This document shows positions 1-56,439 of a stretch of DNA of 56,439 nt, one piece after another (positions within the stretch are counted from its first letter, which is position 1; each line of letters begins with the position of its first letter). Source of the DNA: a virus. Where the stretch lies: positions 1 to 56,439 of IMG/VR virus record IMGVR_UViG_3300015264_000006; one strand, written 5' to 3'. Made by a program: the position numbers and the translations under genes. The notes below the pieces were generated by a model. That model had not been told where the DNA came from. It did not search any database and worked only from the letters and a program-made list of their open reading frames with translations.

Positions 1-77
1 ACCGGAGTTCGAGCCCCGTCCCCCCGACCCCGGCATATCCGCAGTTCAGCAGGAGTATGAGGAGATGTGTCGCAGCA
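1..77. repeat. Terminal overlap, left copy (77 bp, identical to 56363-56439)
   Basis: The first 77 bases are identical to the last 77. The repressor frame reads through the join without interruption, so the molecule is circular and one copy is redundant. The length of 77 matches a common assembler k-mer; a natural terminal repeat is less likely. Confidence 0.95.
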
Positions 78-3744: not shown

Positions 3745-3933
3745 TCTTACTGCGGATGGTCGGGGAGACAGGGAGCGGCTTCCAGGCTGCCGCCGCCCGC
3801 CGGGCACTGCCGCCGAAGCGGGGACCCCGGACATCCCATCCCTGAGCGTCTCCCCTGGCGGGAATCCTGCGCCCCCGGCCTGACGGACGCCCGCTCCCCT
3901 GGAGCAGCCGCTACCCGACGACGCGGGGGCTAG

Positions 3934-4009
3934 TGGCGCGGACCGGATTTGAACCGGTGGTCTCTGGCTTATGAGGCCAGCGAGGACAGCCGAGCTCCTC
4001 TACCGCGCT
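3934..4009 (-). tRNA. tRNA-Met (CAU)
   Basis: The leftward strand folds as a full cloverleaf: acceptor AGCGCGG/CCGCGCC, D-stem GAGG/CCTC, anticodon stem CTGGC/GCCAG with loop CTCATAA (anticodon CAU), and T-stem ACCGG/CCGGT with TTCAAAT. The discriminator is A and CCA is not encoded. The first acceptor pair is an A:C mismatch. The anticodon stem lacks the GGG/CCC of initiators, so it is elongator Met, or Ile-CAU if modified. Confidence 0.9.
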
Positions 4010-26343: not shown

Positions 26344-26733
26344 CTAGAAGAAGTACGCGCTGATGCTGTTCAGCACGTTGGTGTTCGCCGACATCGTCAC
26401 CCGCAGGTAGCGCCACGGGTAACCGGCCAGCACATACCGGCGGGTCGTCGTCGCTGTGGTCACCGGGCCGAACGTGGCCACGCTGACCACCGTCGGGGAG
26501 GCCGGGTCCGCGTACGGGATGGCGAAGAAGCTCGTCCCGTCCGCCGACCCCTCCACCAGGTAGGTGCAGGTGGGGGTGGCACCGACCGTGGTGATGACCT
26601 CCAGCAGCACCGGGCCGGTACGCCCGCCGCGGTCGATGATGTTCGTCGTCGGCACCGACCCGGCCAGCGCCGTGCACAGGCTGACCGCGGCGGGCGAGTA
26701 CGGGGCGCCGACGTCAACGGCGAGCGTCGCCAT
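26344..26733 (-). CDS. Head decoration-type protein
   Basis: 129 residues, beta-rich: TLAVDVGAPYSPAAVSLCTA, YLVEGSADGTSFFAIPYADP and RRYVLAGYPWRYLRVTMSAN. The last part resembles a carbohydrate-binding-like beta-sandwich used by capsid decoration proteins. Directly downstream of the capsid gene with TGATG overlap. Confidence 0.6.
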   Translation of the reverse strand: MATLAVDVGAPYSPAAVSLCTALAGSVPTTNIIDRGGRTGPVLLEVITTVGATPTCTYLVEGSADGTSFFAIPYADPASPTVVSVATFGPVTTATTTRRYVLAGYPWRYLRVTMSANTNVLNSISAYFF

Positions 26734-27983
26734 CAGACCAGGTACTTGGCGAACGCAGCCGGGCGGATCACGTCCCCGCCGACACGCTCCTTGAACAGGA
26801 ACCCGACCAGGCCCTGGTCCGCGTAACGCTCGTCGAGGCGCTGCACCGTGATCCGCTGCCGGTCGCCGATCATGTACCCGGAGCGGATGTCGCCGAACAG
26901 CACCGACGGCGCGGAACCCGGCGCCGGGAGCCCGGACACCCGGTAGAACGCCCGGCCGAACAGCCGGTCCGGCTGCCCCGCCTGGTTAGACGGCTGCCAC
27001 AGGTAGTTCGACGTCGAGTCCTTGAGCAGCGCGATCGACTGCGTCGCGAGGTCGGAGGCGACGTAGGAGCCGACGTTCGCGAACCGGGACAGGATCACGT
27101 ACTGCAGCTTCTTCAGGTCATCCGGCACGATCACCGCCGACGTCGCCGCGGTGACGCCCTGCGCGGCGGGGATCGCCCCGCCGATCGTCGCCCGCGTCGC
27201 GATGCCGAACGGCTTGCTCGTGCCGTTCCCGGCGGCGAACGCGTCGTCTTCCATCTCGGCGAATTTCTGCCCCACGATCTCCTGCACCAGCGACACCAGG
27301 TTCGAGTCGGTGTCCTGCAGCTCATCGACGCCGATCTGCACCAGCGCCACCAGGTCCTGCACGGTGACCGTGTTCGGGCCGGTCGCCGCGATCGCCGCGT
27401 CCGTCGGCGGCGTCGCGCCACCCGCGTTCGTGAGCTCGATCTGCCCCCAGCCGGCGGTCACGCCGGTCAGCGCCCGCACGTCCACCAGGTTGGAGGTGGT
27501 CGGCCTGACCAGCGCCAGGTCCCGCAGCACCCCGAGGCGCGGCAGCTGCAGGAAGATCGGCCCCGCCAGGTCATGCGGGACGATGATCTGCCCGGTCGAG
27601 TTCTCGATGATCGCGGCCTTCTCCTCCATGTTCAGCGAGGAGGCCCCGGTGCGCAGCGCCTTCGCGAACCATTCCGTGGCCATCCGGCCGGACGCCTCAG
27701 CGGCCCGGCCGCCCGGCGGGGTCCCGCCGACGGCGGCCTTGACCTGCGCGTCCAGCACCGGGTGCGGGGTTTCCGGGGCGGCGGACCACGACTCCAGGTC
27801 GTTGTGCTCCTTCTCGGCCGCAGCCAGGTCCCGGAGCCGGAACGCCTCCTTGTTCAGGGCCTTCATGTTCGCCAGCTCATCGGCGGGCATCTTCGTCGGG
27901 TCCGGGAACCTGTCCTTGATCGCCCGGGCGAGGTGAATGCAGTTCAGTGACTTGTCGGTCAGCTCCTGCAGGCGGGTGGTCAT
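26733..27983 (-). CDS. Major capsid protein, HK97 fold
   Basis: 416 residues. An N-terminal helical delta/scaffold region of about 110 residues (KALNKEAFRLRDLAAAEKEH) precedes the shell domain. RPTTSNLVDVRALTGVTAGW, GVDELQDTDSNLVSLVQEIV and FGDIRSGYMIGDRQRITVQR are typical of the HK97 E-loop, spine and A-domain. The order protease then capsid agrees. The delta domain would be removed by the upstream protease. Confidence 0.9.
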   Translation of the reverse strand: MTTRLQELTDKSLNCIHLARAIKDRFPDPTKMPADELANMKALNKEAFRLRDLAAAEKEHNDLESWSAAPETPHPVLDAQVKAAVGGTPPGGRAAEASGRMATEWFAKALRTGASSLNMEEKAAIIENSTGQIIVPHDLAGPIFLQLPRLGVLRDLALVRPTTSNLVDVRALTGVTAGWGQIELTNAGGATPPTDAAIAATGPNTVTVQDLVALVQIGVDELQDTDSNLVSLVQEIVGQKFAEMEDDAFAAGNGTSKPFGIATRATIGGAIPAAQGVTAATSAVIVPDDLKKLQYVILSRFANVGSYVASDLATQSIALLKDSTSNYLWQPSNQAGQPDRLFGRAFYRVSGLPAPGSAPSVLFGDIRSGYMIGDRQRITVQRLDERYADQGLVGFLFKERVGGDVIRPAAFAKYLV

Positions 27984-29080
27984 CGTCTTCCTTCCTGGAG
28001 CTCGGCCTCGAGCCGGTCCATGTCTTCTGCCGCCCGGCCGATTTCGAGCTGGGCGAGGGGACCGGCGAGTGCCTGGGGCGGCTCACCGCCGGGTGCGCCG
28101 TCACGCGGCCCGGTAGGGGTGATGAACGACAGCGCGTACCTGGCGCTGGCCTCATCACTGATCACTCGTTCCGCAGTGCCCTCGCCTGGGGCGGCTGCGC
28201 CCGCAGTGGGTTCCGGCCCGCCGGCCGTCCCGGCTGCGTCGTCATCGTCAAGGGGCTGGTACGCGGCGACCAGGAGGTCGGCCGCTGCCTTGGCCGCGGG
28301 CCTGTACGTGATGCTGAGCGCCTTGCCCATCAGGTCGCTGAACTGGCCGAAGTCGAGGCTGGACGACTCTGTGACCTTGCTCCCGAACTTCTCCTGCGCC
28401 GCGCGCACCTTCGGCAGCGCCTGCTTCCCGAACTCCGCCCCCTGGGCGATCCGGACTGCGGCATTATCCGCGTGGGCCCTGTCGTGGACAGGGAAGTGCC
28501 GCAGCGACCTCGGGGTGGTCTTCCCCTCGGCGTCCTTGCTGCCTCCGGGCTCAATGTAGGCGAACGCGGAATCCGGCAGGTCATTGATGCTCGCGGAGGT
28601 CATCGCTGCTTTCGCCGACGCCGTCGCCAGCTCGTTGATGGGGAACGGCGACACCGTCACCTCGAACAGCTTCAGCTCCTGCAGGAACCGCGCCGACTTC
28701 CCGGCATGCTGCCCCAGGTAGTGCTTCACCGCCTGGTAGGTGAACGACATGCCCTTCAGGTGGCCCTCGACCATCTTCGTCCGGACCGACTGGGCCTTCT
28801 GGTCGGAGGAGAACCGGGCCCGCACCCGCAGGCCGGTGGCGTCTTCCCGCGCGTCGTGGACGCTGCCGATCACCCCGGCCGTGGACAGGTCGTGGTCAGC
28901 GATCAGCGGCAGCGGCTGCCGCGAGTGGGACCAGTCGGTGAGCGTCTTCTTGAACGCCCCGGGCATGACGACGTCACCGTCGGCGTCCACGTTCCCGAAC
29001 ACGCTGGCGTAGCCCTCCAGCTCACCCGGGCTGCCGGAGGCGGCTTTCCACTCGACCGGCACGATCATGTGATCCGGCAT
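27980..29080 (-). CDS. Prohead protease (HK97 family, S78/U35)
   Basis: 366 residues. The N-terminal domain reads GYASVFGNVDADGDVVMPGA, LIADHDLSTAGVIG with catalytic H63, GHLKGMSFTY with S112 and KLFEVTVSPFPIN with E140, the H-S-E triad of this family. Past residue 160 comes a long extension with an alanine/proline linker, which may act in scaffolding. The stop overlaps the capsid ATG. Confidence 0.9.
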   Translation of the reverse strand: MPDHMIVPVEWKAASGSPGELEGYASVFGNVDADGDVVMPGAFKKTLTDWSHSRQPLPLIADHDLSTAGVIGSVHDAREDATGLRVRARFSSDQKAQSVRTKMVEGHLKGMSFTYQAVKHYLGQHAGKSARFLQELKLFEVTVSPFPINELATASAKAAMTSASINDLPDSAFAYIEPGGSKDAEGKTTPRSLRHFPVHDRAHADNAAVRIAQGAEFGKQALPKVRAAQEKFGSKVTESSSLDFGQFSDLMGKALSITYRPAAKAAADLLVAAYQPLDDDDAAGTAGGPEPTAGAAAPGEGTAERVISDEASARYALSFITPTGPRDGAPGGEPPQALAGPLAQLEIGRAAEDMDRLEAELQEGRR

Positions 29081-29089
29081 CGGTGCTCC

Positions 29090-30556
29090 TTACCGGCCGT
29101 GGCCGTTGACGCGGGCCAGGTCTGGCCGCTTGCGCGCGAGATCAGCGAGGAACTCGCCGGCGTAGGACGCCACCCGGACCTGCGGCAGCGGCGGCGCCCC
29201 CGGCTCCAGCCCCGGCTGATCACCCGGCGGCTGCGCGCCGATCACGTCACCGGCCTGCGGCAGCGCCCCCATCGGCAGCGGCACCGCGCCGCGGGGCAGC
29301 AGGAACACGTCCCCGGCCGCGTCGGTGTCCAGGCCCACGATCCGCCGGAAGTCGTTGACCGTGATCCCGCCGTGAGACAGGGCGTTCACCGCCCGCTCCC
29401 ACTTCGACGACTCGGCCTCCTGCAGGGCCAGCACCTGGCTGTTGTCCCACCGGACAGCCACCCGCGCCCGGCCCGTCCCGGAGAACTCCGCCAGCAGCCG
29501 CGTCTCCACCGGGTCACGGAACCGCCGCTGCAGGGAAAAAATGGCTTCTTCCCACAATTGTTTACGCGCTTCTTGGTAATTCGTAAAAGTGCTTCTATCC
29601 AATCCTACCTTTGCGCCGACAAGGATTGGGGGAACTTGCATTGCGGCACAAATGCGCGATTCTGAAATGGCCCGCAGGTCCGGGAACTCCAGGTCCCGCA
29701 GGTTCATCCCCAGCGGCTGCACGTCCATCCCCGCCTGCAGCACCGCTGGCTCACCGCGGCGGGCGCCGGCGAACGCGGCCTTCCACTTGCGTTTCAGCAT
29801 GTCCGCGACGGCCTGCGTCGTCTCCGTCGCCGTCTTGATCACCACGCCCGGCACCGCGTAGTTGCGCAGCAGCGTGTCCACGAAATCGGTGGCCGAGTTG
29901 TCCAGCGACACCGCCCGCGCCGCCGGCCGCAAGGGCGGCTGCCCGAAATAGGCGCTCAGCGGGTTCGGGTACTTCACGTGGATGATGTCCCGGTACGCGA
30001 TCGGGATGATCGCCGCCGTGACGTTGCGCGGGCCCGTCGTCGGGTCCAGGACATACCCGTAGGACCACACCCGCGGGTCGGTGGTCGGGAAGATGCGGAT
30101 CAGGTCCGGGCGCACCGGCCACAGCTCCGCCGGGAGGCCGTCGCGGCCCCGCTGGATCAGCCAGTAGGAGTTCCCCGCCAGGTCCAGGTACGTGACGCTG
30201 AGCTCGAAGAACTCGAACTCGCCGGTCACGGGGTTCGGCCGGGAGATCAGCCGCCGCAGCCGGTGGCTCTCCAGCGGCTCCCCGTGCGCCACGGGCTGGT
30301 CCCCCGGGTAGACCCGCAGCACCGACTGGGGCAGGTTCTCCGCCCGCTCCCGGATGCACGCGTAGACGAGCTCGTTGCGGCCGTACCCCGCCGACGCGGA
30401 CGACTGGTAGGACGAGTCCGGGTACAGGGCACCGTCGAGGTTCGGCTTCCCCCCGGCGAACGGCGGGACCTGGATGACGTTCTGGGTGCCGTCACCGCGG
30501 GGCAGCAGCAGCGCGGACGCCTTGCGCTCCGCCGCCGACCCGTCAAGCCAGCCCAT
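29090..30556 (-). CDS. Portal protein, HK97 family
   Basis: 488 residues. AYACIRERAENLPQSVLRVY, LDLAGNSYWLIQRGRDGLPA, DIIHVKYPNPLSAYFGQPPL and the conserved CAAMQVPPILVGAKVGLD stem/clip region identify an HK97-type portal. It forms the dodecameric DNA channel at one vertex. Residues of about 296-341 are encoded by an AT-richer patch (29535-29670). The disordered C-terminus is proline-rich. Confidence 0.92.
   Translation of the reverse strand: MGWLDGSAAERKASALLLPRGDGTQNVIQVPPFAGGKPNLDGALYPDSSYQSSASAGYGRNELVYACIRERAENLPQSVLRVYPGDQPVAHGEPLESHRLRRLISRPNPVTGEFEFFELSVTYLDLAGNSYWLIQRGRDGLPAELWPVRPDLIRIFPTTDPRVWSYGYVLDPTTGPRNVTAAIIPIAYRDIIHVKYPNPLSAYFGQPPLRPAARAVSLDNSATDFVDTLLRNYAVPGVVIKTATETTQAVADMLKRKWKAAFAGARRGEPAVLQAGMDVQPLGMNLRDLEFPDLRAISESRICAAMQVPPILVGAKVGLDRSTFTNYQEARKQLWEEAIFSLQRRFRDPVETRLLAEFSGTGRARVAVRWDNSQVLALQEAESSKWERAVNALSHGGITVNDFRRIVGLDTDAAGDVFLLPRGAVPLPMGALPQAGDVIGAQPPGDQPGLEPGAPPLPQVRVASYAGEFLADLARKRPDLARVNGHGR
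29535..29670 (-). other. Low-GC patch inside the portal gene
   Basis: About 61 of 130 bases counted (29541-29670) are G or C (47 percent). About 27 of 46 codons end in A or T, such as GAA, CAA, AAA, AGA, ATT and TTT. On both sides codons almost always end in G or C. The amino acids encoded are the most conserved portal segment and the frame is intact, so this is foreign or recoded DNA in a working gene. Confidence 0.85.
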
Positions 30557-31104: not shown

Positions 31105-31515
31105 ATGACCCCGCCGATCAGGCCATGGCAGAAACTGCCGTACGTGTCCTGTTACTGCTGTCCCGCCCAGGCCACGTACCGTGCCGCAGCGGCATCCTTG
31201 GTGCCCGATGACAGATACGAAGGCGACGGGATCGCGCTGACTTTCACAGACGAGCCGGAACGCGCGAGCCTGCTGGCCTGCGATGAGCATTTTGAGCAAG
31301 CCATGCAGTCAGTTAGGGAGACCTCAGACGCGGACGGCTCCATCGGCGGGCCGCTGCGGCTTCCCTGGCGGTGCTGGTTTCTCTATTACTCGACGACCGG
31401 GCGGCCGATCGGGGACTTCGCCGTGAAGCTGTCCAACTGGAGGTTTGAGCGGTGGTCGGCTAGGGCCGATGACTCCCTGATAGCTCAGAAAACGTCAGGC
31501 TCAGGCGGAACCTGA
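31105..31515 (+). CDS. Hypothetical protein, island 4
   Basis: 136 residues, read against the surrounding late genes. N-terminal VSCYCCPAQATY and LACDEHFEQAM give a CxxC...C..H pattern that may bind zinc; the C-terminal half has WRCWFLYYSTTGRPIGDFA. CATACT (31093-31098) ends 6 bases before the ATG, so the message is probably leaderless. The last 31 bases overlap the terminase 3-prime end. Confidence 0.55.
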   Translation: MTPPIRPWQKLPYVSCYCCPAQATYRAAAASLVPDDRYEGDGIALTFTDEPERASLLACDEHFEQAMQSVRETSDADGSIGGPLRLPWRCWFLYYSTTGRPIGDFAVKLSNWRFERWSARADDSLIAQKTSGSGGT

Positions 31516-33032
31516 ACCCCGAACGTCGCATGGCCGTGGCGGGCCAGGGTGACCGCCTCCAGCGGGCTCACAGGCGCCGCGGCACCGCGCCACGACCACG
31601 CCCACGCATCTGCCAGCGACCGGGTCCGGGCACCCTCTGCGGCCGCGTCCAGCGGCCCCTGCCCGAGATGCCGCCACCGGCCGTTCTTCACGTCCTGGGC
31701 CAGCGCGCCGCAGCCCTGCGCGTACTCCCGCATGGACGTCATCTGCAGCCGCCGCTTACCCGGCGGCGGGTCCTTCCCCGGCGCCGTCACCGCGAACCCG
31801 CGCCCGATCAGCTCTTTCGCGAACGCGCCGGCCGCCCCGGCCGGGTTCATCACCAGCACGCACGGGTCATGCGCATCCGCCAGCTCGCACAGCCGGTCAG
31901 CCAGCCCCGCCGTGTCCTCATGCGGCGGCTCGGTCAGCTCCCCGTGGCCCAGGCCATCCGCCCGGCGGCCCGCCACCGCCACCGACCACGTACCCGGCCA
32001 CGGCGACTCATCAGGCTCCACCGCGAACGCCAGCGCCACCGGCCCGCTGATCTGCGACGCCGGGTCAGCCAGGCCCGCCCACGCCGCGACGAAACCAGCA
32101 CCGGCCCTCATCCCCGACCGGTCCGGGACATTCCCGTACGCCCGGGCGAACTCAGGTGCTTCCATTGACACCCGCTCACTGCGGATCGCGTCCAGCGTGA
32201 TCGTGTGCCGCCACTTCCCGCCGCCGCACCGGCACGGAGGCGACGGGCACAGCGCCGGCATGAACCCGAAGTAGGAGTCCTCGTCCAGCGGGTCCCAGCC
32301 CTCCGGCGCCGAGTACTCGAAATAGGCGATCCCGTGCCCGGAGTCCTCCCGGGCCGCGGCACGGCCCAGCTCCATCTGCCGGTCCAGCACCACCGACGCC
32401 GCAGTCCCCGCTGTCGAGCACACCAGCACCTGCGCATCAGCGATCGTGATCATCGCCGGGCCCAGGCCCTGCTCCCGGCGGTTGTCGGTGTCATGCCAGA
32501 TCTCGTCTAGCACCGACTGGTGCAGCGTCTTGGAGTGCCCCGACGACGACGACGTCGACAGCAGCCGGATCAGCGACCCGTTCGTGAACGAGATGTACTC
32601 GTTGCCCATGCCCTCATAGATCCGCCGGACCAGCGGCTTCAGTTTCCTCGACCGGCGGATCAGCGGGAACAGCTCATCCAGCCACTTATCCCGCGCGTCC
32701 TTCCCCGACTGCGCCGTGAACGCCGACCGCTGCGGATGCGACCACCTCGGCGCAGTGCACCGGTGGATCTGGAACGCCAGGAACAGCGTCGTCTTCCCCG
32801 TCTGCCGGGGCACCGTGACGATGATCTTCCGGTAAGCCGGCAGCCCCGTCTGCCCGTCGATCTCCCCCCCGACCATGGCGATGTCCCGCTGGTGGGGCAT
32901 GAACGGCTGGCCCAGCGCCGCGCCGATCCCGGTCAGCTCACCGCCGAACGACTCCCGCTCAGGCCTGCGCCTCGTCGCGTACTTCGGGGAACAGCTCGGC
33001 AAGAGCCGCGTCGGCGGAGCCGTCATCGTCAT
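31485..33032 (-). CDS. terL: Terminase large subunit
   Basis: 515 residues. Walker A VPRQTGKT (74-81), Walker B VLDEIWH (174-180) and a C-terminal RNase H-like nuclease starting near VALAFAVEPDESP. It packages DNA by ATP hydrolysis and cuts concatemers. A CRCGGGK segment is an added cysteine pair. The ATG lies 74 bases inside the small-subunit frame; no better later start is seen. Confidence 0.92.
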   Translation of the reverse strand: MTMTAPPTRLLPSCSPKYATRRRPERESFGGELTGIGAALGQPFMPHQRDIAMVGGEIDGQTGLPAYRKIIVTVPRQTGKTTLFLAFQIHRCTAPRWSHPQRSAFTAQSGKDARDKWLDELFPLIRRSRKLKPLVRRIYEGMGNEYISFTNGSLIRLLSTSSSSGHSKTLHQSVLDEIWHDTDNRREQGLGPAMITIADAQVLVCSTAGTAASVVLDRQMELGRAAAREDSGHGIAYFEYSAPEGWDPLDEDSYFGFMPALCPSPPCRCGGGKWRHTITLDAIRSERVSMEAPEFARAYGNVPDRSGMRAGAGFVAAWAGLADPASQISGPVALAFAVEPDESPWPGTWSVAVAGRRADGLGHGELTEPPHEDTAGLADRLCELADAHDPCVLVMNPAGAAGAFAKELIGRGFAVTAPGKDPPPGKRRLQMTSMREYAQGCGALAQDVKNGRWRHLGQGPLDAAAEGARTRSLADAWAWSWRGAAAPVSPLEAVTLARHGHATFGVQVPPEPDVF

Positions 33033-34671: not shown

Positions 34672-34742
34672 GCGCCCGTAGCTCAGAGGAAGAGCAAACC
34701 ACTCGCAGGGTCAGGCCGCAGGTTCGAATCCTGCCGGGCGCG
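34672..34742 (+). tRNA. tRNA-like gene with irregular anticodon arm
   Basis: Acceptor GCGCCCG/CGGGCGC (7 bp), D-arm GCTC-AGAGGAA-GAGC and T-arm GCAGG-TTCGAAT-CCTGC are perfect. The 22 bases between D and T arms do not form a normal 5-bp stem; the best pairing is ACC/GGT with an 8-base loop ACTCGCAG, so no anticodon can be assigned. It may be a degenerate or unusual tRNA, or a tRNA-derived attachment or structural element. Confidence 0.55.
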
Positions 34743-34816
34743 CGTGCCCATACAGGCTACAAGGTTTCTTGCCAACGAGCTCCCTGGCGGAGTTGCTTTC
34801 GTCAGGGAGCTGGCCG

Positions 34817-38444: not shown

Positions 38445-38576
38445 AGCAGGCTCCGGCTTTTTGTCTTTTCCATTTCAATTCCGCTTTTCCCGCGCGCATC
38501 GCGCGTTGCCAGTCGTTCAAGATTTCTGCGCGTCAGTTAGGTGGGGTCTCCGTTAGTCCGTCCGTCCGTCCGTGCT
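38445..38576. other. AT-rich segment beside the iterons
   Basis: CGGCTTTTTGTCTTTTCC-ATTTCAATTCCGCTTTTCCC (about 38455-38494) is the most T-rich stretch seen in the early region. It is followed by a CGCGCATCGCGCG palindrome and a TCCG tetranucleotide run at 38558-38573. It could be the unwinding element of an origin. Confidence 0.5.
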
Positions 38577-42418: not shown

Positions 42419-43536
42419 GTGCGCCTCTGGGCGGCGGCGTACTCGTCACGGGTGAGGTTGTAGGTCCAGGCGGCTGCCTCGACGGGATCGCTGATCTCCG
42501 CAGGTATCGTCAGCCCGTACCGGCGGCGCGTGCCGTCGCGCTCGGCCGAGCCGTTGGTGCACATCAGCAGGCGCACGCGGGAGCCCCACAGCCGCTCCGG
42601 CACGTCATAGAGGACCAGGTGCTGGCCCGGGTTACCCGGGTCGGGGACGCGGGCGTTGCACAGCTCCGTGCTCGCCTGCCGGGTACCCGGCGTGAGGCCG
42701 ACCGGGACGAGGCCGGCTTCCTCGGCGAACCGGGACCAGCCCATCGCCTCGATCGCGCACCGGCGGACCTCGACATTCTGCTCGGCGCCGATCGCCTCGA
42801 CGGTCGGCGCCCCGATGACCCACGGGTCGACGCGGCGGCCGTGCCAGGCGTGGAACCCCCAGCCGTCCGGGTAGACGATCGCCGGGCCCGTCGCGGAGTG
42901 CAGCGCGCCGTCCGGGTCGCGGTGCAGCTGCGCCGGCCGCTCGGTCGCGATGGCGAAACCGGAGTAGGCCCACCACCAGCCGCACGACCGGGCGGCCTGC
43001 TGCTGCCCGTGGACGGGCTCCAGGCCGGTGACGCCGAGCCGTTCCATCGCGTCGTAGAACGACAGGTAGCCGGCCCAGTGCTGGCCGTACATGCAGCCTT
43101 CCCACCAGCCCAGCAGCCGCCCCCGGACAGGCTCATCGCCGGCGCCGCGCACCTGGCCGTCCACCTGGCCGCGCACCTGGCCGTCCACCTGGCCGCGCAC
43201 CTGGCCGCGCACCTGGCCGTCCACCTGGCCGCGCACCTGGCCGTCCACCTGGCCGTCCACCTGGCCGCGCCGGCGCGGCGGCTTCCCGGCGTCGAGCAGC
43301 GCGGCGTCGATGATCTCCGGTGCGATGGCCTGGGCGATGGTCCCGGCCCAGGGTGAGCCGAGCCAGACGATGATGCGCGGTGGCGGAAGGGCGGCCGCGG
43401 CGTAGGCGGCGCGGATGCCGGCTTCGGCGGAGGGCCGGTCGGCGGCCTGCGTGGACAGGCCGATCGCCAGCCACTCGTCGCGGATCCGGGGCAGGAGGGC
43501 TTCCTGCTCTGCGGTGAGTTTCGTGATCTTCTTCAT
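42415..43536 (-). CDS. DUF6745-like protein with 4-residue tandem repeats
   Basis: 373 residues. Near residue 90, ten tandem GQV[DR] units form a flexible, charge-alternating linker. The rest (WEGCMYGQHWAGYLSFYDAM, SATGPAIVYPDGWGFHAWHG and YGLTIPAEISDPVEAAAWTY) fits DUF6745, an actinobacterial family of unknown function. The N-terminus (RIRDEWLAIGLSTQAADRPS) and the last 30 residues are also typical of that family. Confidence 0.75.
   Translation of the reverse strand: MKKITKLTAEQEALLPRIRDEWLAIGLSTQAADRPSAEAGIRAAYAAAALPPPRIIVWLGSPWAGTIAQAIAPEIIDAALLDAGKPPRRRGQVDGQVDGQVRGQVDGQVRGQVRGQVDGQVRGQVDGQVRGAGDEPVRGRLLGWWEGCMYGQHWAGYLSFYDAMERLGVTGLEPVHGQQQAARSCGWWWAYSGFAIATERPAQLHRDPDGALHSATGPAIVYPDGWGFHAWHGRRVDPWVIGAPTVEAIGAEQNVEVRRCAIEAMGWSRFAEEAGLVPVGLTPGTRQASTELCNARVPDPGNPGQHLVLYDVPERLWGSRVRLLMCTNGSAERDGTRRRYGLTIPAEISDPVEAAAWTYNLTRDEYAAAQRRT
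43151..43270. repeat. Ten tandem 12-bp coding repeats
   Basis: ACCTGGCC followed by GTCC or GCGC, ten times without a break. Each unit encodes Gly-Gln-Val-Asp or Gly-Gln-Val-Arg on the leftward strand. The order of the two variants is irregular, so units have been gained and lost one or two at a time. Confidence 0.95.
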
Positions 43537-45208: not shown

Positions 45209-45732
45209 GCCGCGCTCCTCATGTTGTGGCCGCTCATGAAGCGCCGGTCACGGCCTTTGCTGTCTGGTGTCTCGATCTGCTCGCCGCACCCGCAGGCACA
45301 CGCGATCAGGACTCGGGGCTTGCGCCTGGCGGCCACTGCCTGCGCGATCGTGACCTGCCGAAGTCCAGTCCTGTATGCGTGCCGCATGTTGTCCGGACGT
45401 GTCAGGTACTCGAGATTCCAGGCGGCCGGCTGCTGCTTGTCGCCGTCCTTGTGATTGACCTCATGGCCAGGCGGGCACGGCCTGATGAACGCAGCGGCAA
45501 CGAGGCAGTGAACGAGTCGCGTTGACGGCCGGCCGTCACGCCAGAGCTGCACAACCAGATAGCTGCCGGGTGCCACCTCGTGCGCCTTGAGTACGCGGCC
45601 GATGCGGGCGCCCCCGCCATGCCCGGCGCCGTTGCGTGCGGCCCGGCCGATGCGTCGCACCCGGCCACGGTCGCTCACTTCGTAGGCCGGGAAGCCCTCG
45701 ACGATGGCCCAGCCCTCGAACGCGTCAGCCAT
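45205..45732 (-). CDS. NUMOD4-HNH homing-type endonuclease
   Basis: 175 residues from ATG 45732. EGWAIVEGFPAYEVSDRGRV is a NUMOD4 domain; LVHCLVAAAFIRPCPPGHEV, NHKDGDKQQPAAWNLEYLTR is the HNH core; a C-terminal CACGCGEQIETPDSKGRDRR-FMSGHN is a small zinc domain. Free-standing nuclease inserted between recT and the FEGWAI-family gene; it may promote its own spread. The EGWAI start is similar to the next gene. Confidence 0.85.
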   Translation of the reverse strand: MADAFEGWAIVEGFPAYEVSDRGRVRRIGRAARNGAGHGGGARIGRVLKAHEVAPGSYLVVQLWRDGRPSTRLVHCLVAAAFIRPCPPGHEVNHKDGDKQQPAAWNLEYLTRPDNMRHAYRTGLRQVTIAQAVAARRKPRVLIACACGCGEQIETPDSKGRDRRFMSGHNMRSAA

Positions 45733-46825
45733 CGGTGGCCTCCCCGCTGGCGTCCTGCTCGATGCGGGTGGCGGCGGCCAAGAGGCCGGCGCGGTCCTTG
45801 ATGCCGTTGAGCCGGCCGATCGCGGTCCGGGCCTGGGCCTCGGTGAGGTCCTTAGTGGACTCCAGGTCATCAGGGACGCCGGCGAGGCGGGCGGTGAAGA
45901 CCAGGCGCTCCTCGCGGTCGTGGTCCTCGTAGCCGAGCTTGCTGAACGCGGTGCGGATGATGCCGACCTGCCCGCTGCTGGCCCGCGCGGGCGGCCGCTC
46001 AGCGCCGTCGCCGCGCGGGTCCGCTGGCTCATCGGGCGGCAGGGGCACGTCGAGCCTGGCGGCCATCTTGCCGGGCTGCTCAGCCCAGTCGTCGCGGGTC
46101 CGCTGCTGGCGGGGCGGCCGGCGGGTGGTGATGTCCTCGGCGGTGATCCGGACAGCCGCAGGCGCGGGGTCGCCGGGCCCGCCGGCGGGCTGGACCTCCT
46201 CGGGGATGTAGATCCCGCCGAGGTCGTGCGGGAACGCGCGGCGCAGCGCGAACGCCTCGGCGCACTTCTCGATCATGTGGTCGGGCTGTGTTTTCCACTG
46301 CCCGGCCGGTTCGCCGCCCTTGGTGAGCTGCATGTACGAGGCGGTGCGGCAGACGCCGGGGTACCGCTTGCCGTCCTTGAGGACGACGACTTTCGCCGCG
46401 GCGGGCGGGTAGTCCCAGAGCCACACGCCGTGCTGGCCTCCGTCGCCGTCGTACCAGATGGTGTCCTCGTACTCGACGGTGAGGCCGAGGCGCTGGGCGA
46501 TGCGGTCGCGGATGACCTGGAAGCCGCCGATGCCGACCTGGATGGTCCACTTGGTGACCCACTGCTCCTGCCACTGCCCGCGGTCGTCCTGCCACTTCTC
46601 CTTGTTGCGGCGGCCGATGTAGTAGATCTGCCTGCTGAACGGGTCGAGCTGGGTTTTCTGGCAGTAGTGCATGAACACGGCCAGCTCAGCGTCGGAGCAG
46701 TCCTTGATGCCGAGGACGGCCAGGCCCGCCTTCTGCTTCTCGTTGAATGTCTCCTGGCCGGGCTTGATGACCAGGCCGGACAGGGGTGCGGGACGGGTGG
46801 CGATGCCGTTTCCGGGGGTGCTCAT
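45725..46825 (-). CDS. recT: RecT-family single-strand annealing protein
   Basis: 366 residues. FNEKQKAGLAVLGIKDCSDA, FMHYCQKTQLDPFSRQIYYI, TIQVGIGGFQVIRDRIAQRL and MIEKCAEAFALRRAFPHDLG are the RecT/Bet core. The C-terminal 130 residues are a low-complexity linker and a small helical domain (SGQVGIIRTAFSKLGYEDHD). It anneals complementary strands produced by the RecE-like exonuclease encoded nearby. Confidence 0.92.
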   Translation of the reverse strand: MSTPGNGIATRPAPLSGLVIKPGQETFNEKQKAGLAVLGIKDCSDAELAVFMHYCQKTQLDPFSRQIYYIGRRNKEKWQDDRGQWQEQWVTKWTIQVGIGGFQVIRDRIAQRLGLTVEYEDTIWYDGDGGQHGVWLWDYPPAAAKVVVLKDGKRYPGVCRTASYMQLTKGGEPAGQWKTQPDHMIEKCAEAFALRRAFPHDLGGIYIPEEVQPAGGPGDPAPAAVRITAEDITTRRPPRQQRTRDDWAEQPGKMAARLDVPLPPDEPADPRGDGAERPPARASSGQVGIIRTAFSKLGYEDHDREERLVFTARLAGVPDDLESTKDLTEAQARTAIGRLNGIKDRAGLLAAATRIEQDASGEATDG

Positions 46826-51845: not shown

Positions 51846-52021
51846 AGCAGGTCTCCTTTCATGGTCACCGTCTCGGTCTGCGGCGGCAGCGACTGCCTGA
51901 GCCACGCGGACACGACGGCTATGTACACGTCCAGGCGGGCCAGGGCCTGCGCCGCCTGCTTCTCGATCGCGGTTATCTCCGCCGGGGTCGCCGGGCGGCT
52001 CAGCGGGCCGGGGCCGGTCAC
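51842..52021 (-). CDS. Small helical protein
   Basis: 59 residues from GTG 52021. ATPAEITAIEKQAAQALARL and DVYIAVVSAWLRQSLPPQTE. Short amphipathic helices. GTGA overlaps at both ends support coding. Confidence 0.55.
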   Translation of the reverse strand: MTGPGPLSRPATPAEITAIEKQAAQALARLDVYIAVVSAWLRQSLPPQTETVTMKGDLL

Positions 52022-53379
52022 CGGGCACCGTCCTCAAGGTCGAACATGCCGGGCTGCATCGGCCTGCGCATCCGGGTCATGATCAGGCCGGCGTAGGCCG
52101 GGTCACGCTCGATCAGGATGCAGCGGCGCCGCTCGACCACGGCGGCCTCAGCGGTGGTGCCGCTCCCGGCGAACGGGTCGAGGACGGTCCCGCCGGGCGG
52201 GGTGACGAGCCGGATGAGCCACGCCATGAGGCTGACGGGCTTGACGGTGGGGTGCGCGGTTCCGTCGCCGCCGCGCGGGCGCTCGCTGCTGGCGGCCTTG
52301 GCCTCGTAGCGGAACACCGGGAAGAACCGGGACGCGCCGCCGGAGTCGTCACGGGAGATGCATTCGTAATCCCTCGGCAGGCCCTCGCCGCTGGCGTAGA
52401 TTCCGTTGCCGCTGGCGCGGCCCGCGCCGCCTGTCCTGCTCGGCTTCGCCGCGCGGGTGCCCGAACGCTGCCGGTCAAGCTCAGCGGCGGCGTCAGGGCC
52501 GAGCAGGACGTTCGGCGGCCAGCGGCCGGCGGCGTGCGCCTCGGATTGCTCGCGGGGCTCTCCCGTGCCGTTCATGATTCCGCCGGCACTTTTGCGAGGC
52601 GAGCCAAATGGCGTCGGCTTAGGTCCGGCGACCCGGCACCCGTCGATGTTGAGCGCGCCCGTGCCGTGCTCCTGCACGTTGCCGGCCACCGTCCCGGCCA
52701 GGGGCTTGCGGGCGACGATGACGGGCTCGTGGGCGGGCTTGAGCGCCGTGCCCCAGCCCTCCCAGCGGGCCGCGTCATCGGTGGCGGGGGCGGTGATGGC
52801 TGAGGCGTCGTACTCGCCGCTGTGATCGCCGGCGAAGAACTTGACCGGCCATGCCTGCGTGGGCGTCGCAGCCCTGTCGGTTCGCCGTCCGATGACCTCG
52901 CGCTCTGCCCCGGCTGCCTTGTCGATGGCCTTGGACACGTCCAGGGACTTCGGGAACCCCGACCCGTAAATCCAGTGCATGCTGTCGCGGACCTCGAACC
53001 CGGCATCCTCAATGCCGCACGCCAGCCGGTGATAGGTCCGCGTCCCGCCGAACGCCAGCAGGTGGCCGCCCGGCTTGAGGACGCGCAGGCACTCGGCCGC
53101 CCACGCCTCGCACCAGGACTGGAACGGCTGCCCGGCGATGTAGGACTCCGGCGTGGTCACGACCGACGCGCCCACGGCCGGGTTGGTGCGGGCATCGGCC
53201 CGGGTCCGCAGGCGAGCACCTGACGGCTTGAAGCTGTCCCACTCGCGGCCCATGAACTCCAGGCCGTACGGCGGGTCAGTGACTACGGCATCGACCGAGG
53301 CGCCGGGCATCTCGGCTAGCACCTCCATGCAGTCGCCCAGGTACAGGCTGACGTCGCCGTCCGACCAGTAGGGGGTCAC
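52018..53379 (-). CDS. N4/N6 DNA methyltransferase
   Basis: 453 residues from GTG 53379. DPPYGLEF at residues 35-42 is catalytic motif IV; VLDPFAGSGTTAEAAV near residue 410 is the AdoMet motif I. Order catalytic, target recognition, AdoMet matches the beta class. The long centre (HEPVIVARKPLAGTVAGNVQ) would choose the target site. No endonuclease partner is nearby, so it probably acts alone, protecting or marking DNA. Confidence 0.92.
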   Translation of the reverse strand: MTPYWSDGDVSLYLGDCMEVLAEMPGASVDAVVTDPPYGLEFMGREWDSFKPSGARLRTRADARTNPAVGASVVTTPESYIAGQPFQSWCEAWAAECLRVLKPGGHLLAFGGTRTYHRLACGIEDAGFEVRDSMHWIYGSGFPKSLDVSKAIDKAAGAEREVIGRRTDRAATPTQAWPVKFFAGDHSGEYDASAITAPATDDAARWEGWGTALKPAHEPVIVARKPLAGTVAGNVQEHGTGALNIDGCRVAGPKPTPFGSPRKSAGGIMNGTGEPREQSEAHAAGRWPPNVLLGPDAAAELDRQRSGTRAAKPSRTGGAGRASGNGIYASGEGLPRDYECISRDDSGGASRFFPVFRYEAKAASSERPRGGDGTAHPTVKPVSLMAWLIRLVTPPGGTVLDPFAGSGTTAEAAVVERRRCILIERDPAYAGLIMTRMRRPMQPGMFDLEDGAR

Positions 53380-53462
53380 CGGGCACCTGCCAGGGCCAGG
53401 GCGGCCAGCACCAGCAGGACAGCCCATGGGCCCGGGCGGCTCAGGGGGTCCGGGCCGGTCAC
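53376..53462 (-). CDS. 28-residue membrane peptide
   Basis: A very short frame (VTGPDPLSRPGPWAVLLVLA then ALALAGAR) that is almost only a membrane helix. It overlaps the upstream TGA and the methyltransferase GTG by GTGA at both ends. It fills the only gap between these genes, so it is probably real. Confidence 0.5.
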   Translation of the reverse strand: MTGPDPLSRPGPWAVLLVLAALALAGAR

Positions 53463-53662
53463 CGGGCACGCACCAGGATGCCGCCGTCGCCGCGGGCCTC
53501 GACCGTCAGCCACGGGCAGGGCTGCGGCCGTAGCTCGCCGGGCGTGATCTCAGCCTCGCCGCCGTAGCGGCGCAGCAGCGCGTGGATGAGCGACGGGCCG
53601 TCCGGGATGACGCGCAGGACGAAGCAGCGCTGGCCGCAGAAGCGGCAGTAAGGGCCAGCCAT
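53459..53662 (-). CDS. Small zinc-finger-like protein
   Basis: 67 residues: GPYCRFCGQRCFVLRVIPDG, later ELRPQPCPWLTVEARGDGGI. CRFCGQRCF is a metal-binding knuckle typical of small actinophage proteins. One base separates it from the preceding gene. Confidence 0.6.
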   Translation of the reverse strand: MAGPYCRFCGQRCFVLRVIPDGPSLIHALLRRYGGEAEITPGELRPQPCPWLTVEARGDGGILVRAR

Positions 53663-56130: not shown

Positions 56131-56439
56131 TGAGCGAGCAACCAGCCTTCTCCGCTGGCATCCCCGAGTGGGATGTCGCTGACCGCATGCGCAAGGCCCT
56201 CCGGTACGCCGGAGTGATGCCTGGCCAGATGGCCGCCTATCTCGAAGTCGGCAATAACACGGTCAGCACCTGGATCAACGGCCGAATCACCCCCACACCA
56301 CAGACCATCCGGCTCTTCGCCATGCGCTGCGGAGTCGCCTACGAATGGCTCCGGTTCGGCGCACCGGAGTTCGAGCCCCGTCCCCCCGACCCCGGCATAT
56401 CCGCAGTTCAGCAGGAGTATGAGGAGATGTGTCGCAGCA
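56130..56439 (+). CDS. Immunity repressor, N-terminal part (continues at 1-139)
   Basis: Starts MSEQPAFSAGIPEW. RMRKALRYAGVMPGQMAAYL, then EVGNNTVSTWINGRITPTPQ, a helix-turn-helix of the XRE/CI type with recognition helix NNTVSTWINGR. RLFAMRCGVAYEWLRFG ends the domain. The 123-residue product lacks a RecA-cleavage domain, so it resembles short actinophage repressors. The ATG lies in its own operator, so autoregulation is likely; the message may be leaderless. Confidence 0.88.
   Translation, partial: MSEQPAFSAGIPEWDVADRMRKALRYAGVMPGQMAAYLEVGNNTVSTWINGRITPTPQTIRLFAMRCGVAYEWLRFGAPEFEPRPPDPGISAVQQEYEEMCRS
56363..56439. repeat. Terminal overlap, right copy (77 bp)
   Basis: Identical to the first 77 bases. 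One copy should be removed when the circle is closed, giving 56,362 bp. Confidence 0.95.

Follow-up and report, generated by a model that had tools for sequence, protein, structure and literature searches.

A silently recoded patch in a phage portal gene and a candidate recombination hotspot at the portal motif

How does a portal gene that is otherwise built of G/C-ending codons come to contain one short block of A/T-ending codons, with no evident cost to the protein? The question arises in the window analyzed here, by which we mean the whole stretch of 56,439 bases that makes up a single virus record. The gene encodes an HK97-type portal protein, which scored 208 bits against the Pfam profile PF04860 (Phage_portal; gathering cutoff, 39.1). 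It is flanked by a terminase-like gene on one side and by the prohead protease and capsid genes on the other, as follows.

29090 to 30556, minus strand: HK97-type portal protein gene, 488 aa (open reading frame; PF04860, E = 2.4e-61)
29537 to 29668, minus strand: silently recoded patch, portal codons 297 to 340 (likelihood scan of A/T-ending codons; codon table versus relatives)
31485 to 33032: terminase-like gene (Pfam match slightly under the gathering score), a neighbor of the portal gene
27980 to 29080: prohead protease gene, the neighbor on the opposite side
26733 to 27983: capsid gene, on the same side of the portal gene as the protease gene

The first 77 bases of the window (1 to 77) are identical to the last 77 (56363 to 56439), and this sequence identity suggests that the record is complete, either circular or terminally redundant, with a length of about 56.36 kb. 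Elsewhere, the window contains a repeat of 12-base period in about eleven overlapping copies (43120 to 43299), a tRNA-Met gene (3933 to 4009), an unusual tRNA-like prediction whose anticodon has two bases (34672 to 34743), and an N6/N4 DNA methylase gene (52018 to 53469; PF01555).

The initial annotation described a low-GC patch in which 27 of 46 codons ended in A or T while the frame and the conserved protein sequence were kept. Both observations held. By our count 27 of 45 codons (codons 296 to 340) end in A or T, versus 18 of 443 in the remainder of the portal gene (P = 2.3e-26), and GC3 is 0.41 in the patch versus 0.96 across the remaining gene. The reading frame is open across the patch, and the protein gives the strong PF04860 match listed above. 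The GC content of positions 29535 to 29669, 0.452, is the minimum among the 135-base stretches of the window (mean, 0.715; standard deviation, 0.051); two other very low-GC stretches, at 38572 and 55999, are intergenic or at the ends of predicted genes. In the likelihood scan the 132-base patch had sharp boundaries on both sides, and its flanks were collinear with those of its kin. The heptamer GCCATTT (gene strand) is found at both edges (29539 to 29545 and 29665 to 29671) and may be due to chance or to microhomology used in an exchange.

When codon usage was compared among related portal genes, a check that the initial annotation had proposed, the nearest relatives (L005/L048, L126/L018, L007/L020, and L019) proved to be 95 to 100% identical to the window in protein sequence over the patch and to use GC-rich codons there, with a patch GC3 of about 0.79 to 1.00. 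None of about 70 related portals had a comparable contrast between patch and gene GC3. The possibility that the patch is an ancestral trait of related high-GC phages was therefore rejected. Where residues are identical, codons coincide in 29% of cases (L048) and 18% of cases (L018) within the patch, and in 74 to 81% of cases in the flanks for the two nearest kin. Nine codons of the patch agree with L005, and 8.2 ± 2.4 are expected from a random redraw at the patch GC3. The codon identity of the patch with its two nearest relatives is at the level given by random recoding. Deamination hypermutation was also rejected, because transversions are among the differences, as are codon switches at more than one base (CGC to AGA and TCG to AGC).

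The source record is metagenomic, and the contigs of relatives L005 and L007 stop within or shortly past the patch site; both facts could point to an assembly chimera. We nevertheless regard a chimera as extremely unlikely. Two contigs of metagenome 3300015053 (5.1 and 5.6 kb) include the patch and its two flanks at 99.96 to 100% identity to the window and are concordant over both edges. In addition, the patch and the relatives have little nucleotide sequence in common through which an assembler could have joined them, and the hotspot described below is also present in cultured phage genomes. The two contigs overlap across the patch by 3.2 kb, yet they are unmerged, and they may represent separate long sequences. 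In contig L003, the last 15 bases duplicate nearby sequence, which is probably an assembly or read artifact.

We gathered 152 portal open reading frames from related viral contigs and scanned close pairs in 17-codon windows for the strongest silent divergence, using matched windows and calling a window hot at p < 1e-3. In six portal families there was a silent-divergence hotspot at about codons 305 to 323 (PPILVGAKVGLDRST), with the following core.

29588 to 29638, minus strand: recurrent hotspot core, portal codons 307 to 323 (QVPPILVGAKVGLDRST; silent-divergence peak, six portal families)

At the motif, 53 of 386 close pairs, distributed over the six families, were hot, versus 6 of 3,144 control windows elsewhere in the portal gene; the hot pairs are mostly from a single large hot-spring family and share members, so these counts are not numbers of independent events. 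In the pair L033/L036, 0 of 17 codons are in common although the protein is identical (p = 1.5e-10). Further hot pairs were L026/L141, L097/L183, and L090 and L181 versus several of their kin. The derived member of the pair is clearly the window, L181, or L090 where these are concerned, and the low core GC3 of L036 makes it the probable derived member of L033/L036.

When pairs were scanned over the neighboring genes, the portal motif was the top window, above terminase, capsid, and protease; these pairs had been preselected for the portal signal (three comparison pairs lacked it), and the loci had been gathered by means of the motif itself, so other genes are more thinly sampled across families. 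Weaker hot windows occurred in other conserved blocks of the capsid, the protease, and the TerL Walker A region, which favors a reading in terms of homology and selection. Two such weaker silent-divergence windows are in the capsid gene of L259/L266 (IVPHDLAGPIFLTLPRL) and near residue 50 of the hot-spring protease.

The hotspot is not a universal property of portal genes. In a Streptococcus-type portal family whose motif is just as conserved (0.97), 0 of 127 pairs were hot, and in the hot-spring family the TerL blocks of highest conservation gave no hot signal. Conservation alone, therefore, does not predict the hotspot, and the site may be chosen by something besides homology. The Shigella SfII family also had no signal at the motif, but this family is nearly clonal and is a weak control.

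Isolate genomes were scanned over the genes shared by each pair of the Gordonia phages Bosnia, RavenCo17, Madeline, Bunnybear, and Mcklovin. The homologous motif (GVPPVIVGLSEGLAAATYS) ranked first for silent divergence among the windows of all shared genes in 5 of the 10 genome pairs; for Madeline/Bunnybear it had p = 9.5e-8 among 5,523 windows. Because these genomes come from isolates, the hotspot is not a product of metagenome assembly error. All five phages encode both RecE and RecT. A silent-divergence comparison of Brujita-group mycobacteriophages did not reveal the hotspot. Comparisons with mycobacteriophage Xula (L283) gave a different silent-divergence block in the portal, at alignment positions 389 to 405. 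Our literature search found no description of a hotspot at the portal motif. The best reading of the recurrent silent replacement in unrelated phages is that it marks the motif as a hidden recombination hotspot.

The initial annotation also suggested that the patch could be a required RNA or DNA feature. An element of this kind, or a codon-speed signal, maintained by selection would be in keeping with the core GC3 of about 0.43 to 0.50 in four recoded lineages. However, most relatives lack it (the mean difference between core and flank GC3 was −0.03 over the 152 portals), and in L097 the change was toward higher GC. The patch had no unusual fold (z-scores of −0.87 and 0.06 versus shuffled sequences) and no meaningful Rfam match. 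Such an element can be given hardly any credence.

Evidence about the source of recoded tracts came from the hot-spring family. The cassette att ttg gtg ggc gca aat gtc ggN ctc caa aga agc ac is common to L090, L181, L105, and L196, which agree within it at 11 to 13 of 14 codons while their flanks match at just 0.55 to 0.73. Conversely, L090 and L133 match at 2 of 14 codons in the core and at 83 of 90 downstream. From these codon comparisons, a short recoded tract is seen to occur in different backgrounds; for the window's patch no second background was found. The hot-spring cassette cores match the lower-GC members L110 and L088 at 0.46 to 0.62, and the flanks match them at 0.31 to 0.41, which indicates a lower-GC member of the same family as the putative source of the cassette.

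No donor of the window's patch was found in the viral contigs or phage records searched. Exact words from the patch matched only the window's own group, and a looser post hoc pattern added the hot-spring cassette. Positions 29588 to 29623 of the window and the cassette have GGC GCA AAx ... AGA AGC AC in common; this pattern, picked after the data had been seen, occurred in only 9 viral contigs. The best single codon match to the patch, 8 of 11 codons in L150, is unremarkable given the number of comparisons. This lack of a donor, and the GC-richness of every member sampled from the window's own clade, count against a tract from a lower-GC relative. By analogy with the hot-spring cassette, we nevertheless infer that the patch came from an unsampled lower-GC relative.

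A distant donor is unlikely because the patch retains residues that are typical of the clade (M306, Q307, Q328, K332, Q333, and L334). This retention argues against a one-off import, at no special site, from a distant phage whose host is AT-rich, as does the finding that sampled lower-GC portals have only about 53 to 64% of the patch residues. An import of this kind would account for an AT-rich patch inside a conserved block but leaves the recurrence at the same codons unexplained, and we think it very improbable.

We consider it fairly probable that the patch arose by gene conversion, as a short tract received from a lower-GC relative at a site of recurrent recombination. When two phages co-infect a cell, or when a phage meets a prophage, a strand of a lower-GC portal gene of the same family would pair with the portal gene at its most conserved block, and two close exchanges would swap about 130 bp. 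As the protein is nearly invariant there, the recombinant would be functional and only its codons would betray the event. In several phage lineages, exchange would recur at this same block. RecT-type annealing is the presumed machinery of such short-tract exchange, and the window encodes a candidate for it.

45725 to 46825, minus strand: RecT-family annealing recombinase gene (Pfam PF03837, E = 1.3e-19)

Of the three ideas in the initial annotation, recombination at the conserved portal motif with a phage of an AT-richer host is thus the one that fares best: an AT-richer source fits the data, and it is the distance of the donor that does not.

Two readings could explain why this block would be preferred. 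In the first, strand exchange between diverged phages would be easiest at this block, and would leave the protein unharmed, because no other part of the portal is as conserved; the cold Streptococcus-type motif and the cold TerL blocks count against this reading by itself. The second, which is possible, is a site-specific cut at the portal motif by a site-specific nuclease. Against such a cut, the portal matches listed were uninterrupted, and our screens revealed neither an endonuclease gene linked to the site nor a guide copy.

The idea of a cut can be extended to a full alternative, in which conserved portal DNA is cut by a nuclease (a free-standing homing endonuclease or one encoded by a satellite) or by a guide-directed system such as CRISPR, and recoded alleles that lack the target but keep the protein are selected and spread as resistance cassettes. 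The recoding is indeed site specific and recurrent, the clade-typical residues are kept, and the minimal cores, at 12 to 17 codons, come close in length to the target of a nuclease or a guide. Moreover, L033 and L036 agree at none of 17 codons, which is below the match level of random recoding (P = 0.009), and the Streptococcus-type motif is not hot despite equal conservation. However, at 44 codons the window's patch is well beyond what escape would need, and no nuclease gene was tied to the recoded alleles in our screens. The window and 20 loci, screened coarsely for motifs, contained no convincing homing-nuclease motif, and no endonuclease was seen among the Pfam matches of the neighboring genes, a profile search that covered a minority of the small genes. 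Second copies of the unrecoded motif that might act as guides did not stand out in the window, where there were just short matches typical of chance. We therefore hold this alternative to be unlikely. The same doubt applies to its broader form, that some hitherto unknown nuclease or guide system targets portal-motif DNA in actinophage-like and hot-spring phages and is answered by protein-neutral, codon-scrambled resistance cassettes of 12 to 45 codons that circulate by recombination.

Co-conversion during a homing or intron event, the remaining suggestion of the initial annotation, received no direct support, although homing may have been the trigger. The patch would then be the scar of an intein or group I intron whose exon flanks were co-converted and which was later lost. 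A replacement centered at a fixed site of a conserved essential gene would suit this history, and portal inteins are known in cluster C1 mycobacteriophages (PMC5050341). But a pattern search with the N-terminal and C-terminal halves of the motif gave no portals split by an intein or intron among the matches listed, and the phage-record matches listed were likewise uninterrupted. The cores are also centered near codons 313 to 317, without the Cys, Ser, or Thr on which an intein would be seated. Such a scar has very little probability in our view.

If gene conversion at a recurrent site is correct, phage lineages exchange one short stretch of an essential head gene far more often than the surrounding gene, in a manner invisible in the protein, and this affects how portal gene trees are to be read. 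Exchange between diverged phages would continue within conserved genes, and the hotspot would be driven either by homology or by a nuclease. The cultured Gordonia phages, which include both allele types, make this question directly testable.

Mosaic exchange among phages proceeds by relaxed homologous recombination with annealases of the RecT/Red type. The present case is like it in that a short diverged tract lies within a collinear gene and the phage encodes RecT; it is unlike it in being silent, confined to one protein-invariant motif, and repeated at the same codons in unrelated families. The portal-gene inteins of cluster C1 mycobacteriophages provide a likeness at the level of the gene, in that the portal gene is a target of mobile elements, but differ in that no interrupted allele occurred among the portal matches listed here (PMC5050341). 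The third known system is intronless homing and marker exclusion by free-standing endonucleases of the T4 SegF/SegG type (cited in PMC12724721). No endonuclease gene was linked to the recoded allele here, but the two are alike in the local replacement around a conserved site of an essential gene and in the spread of alleles by conversion.
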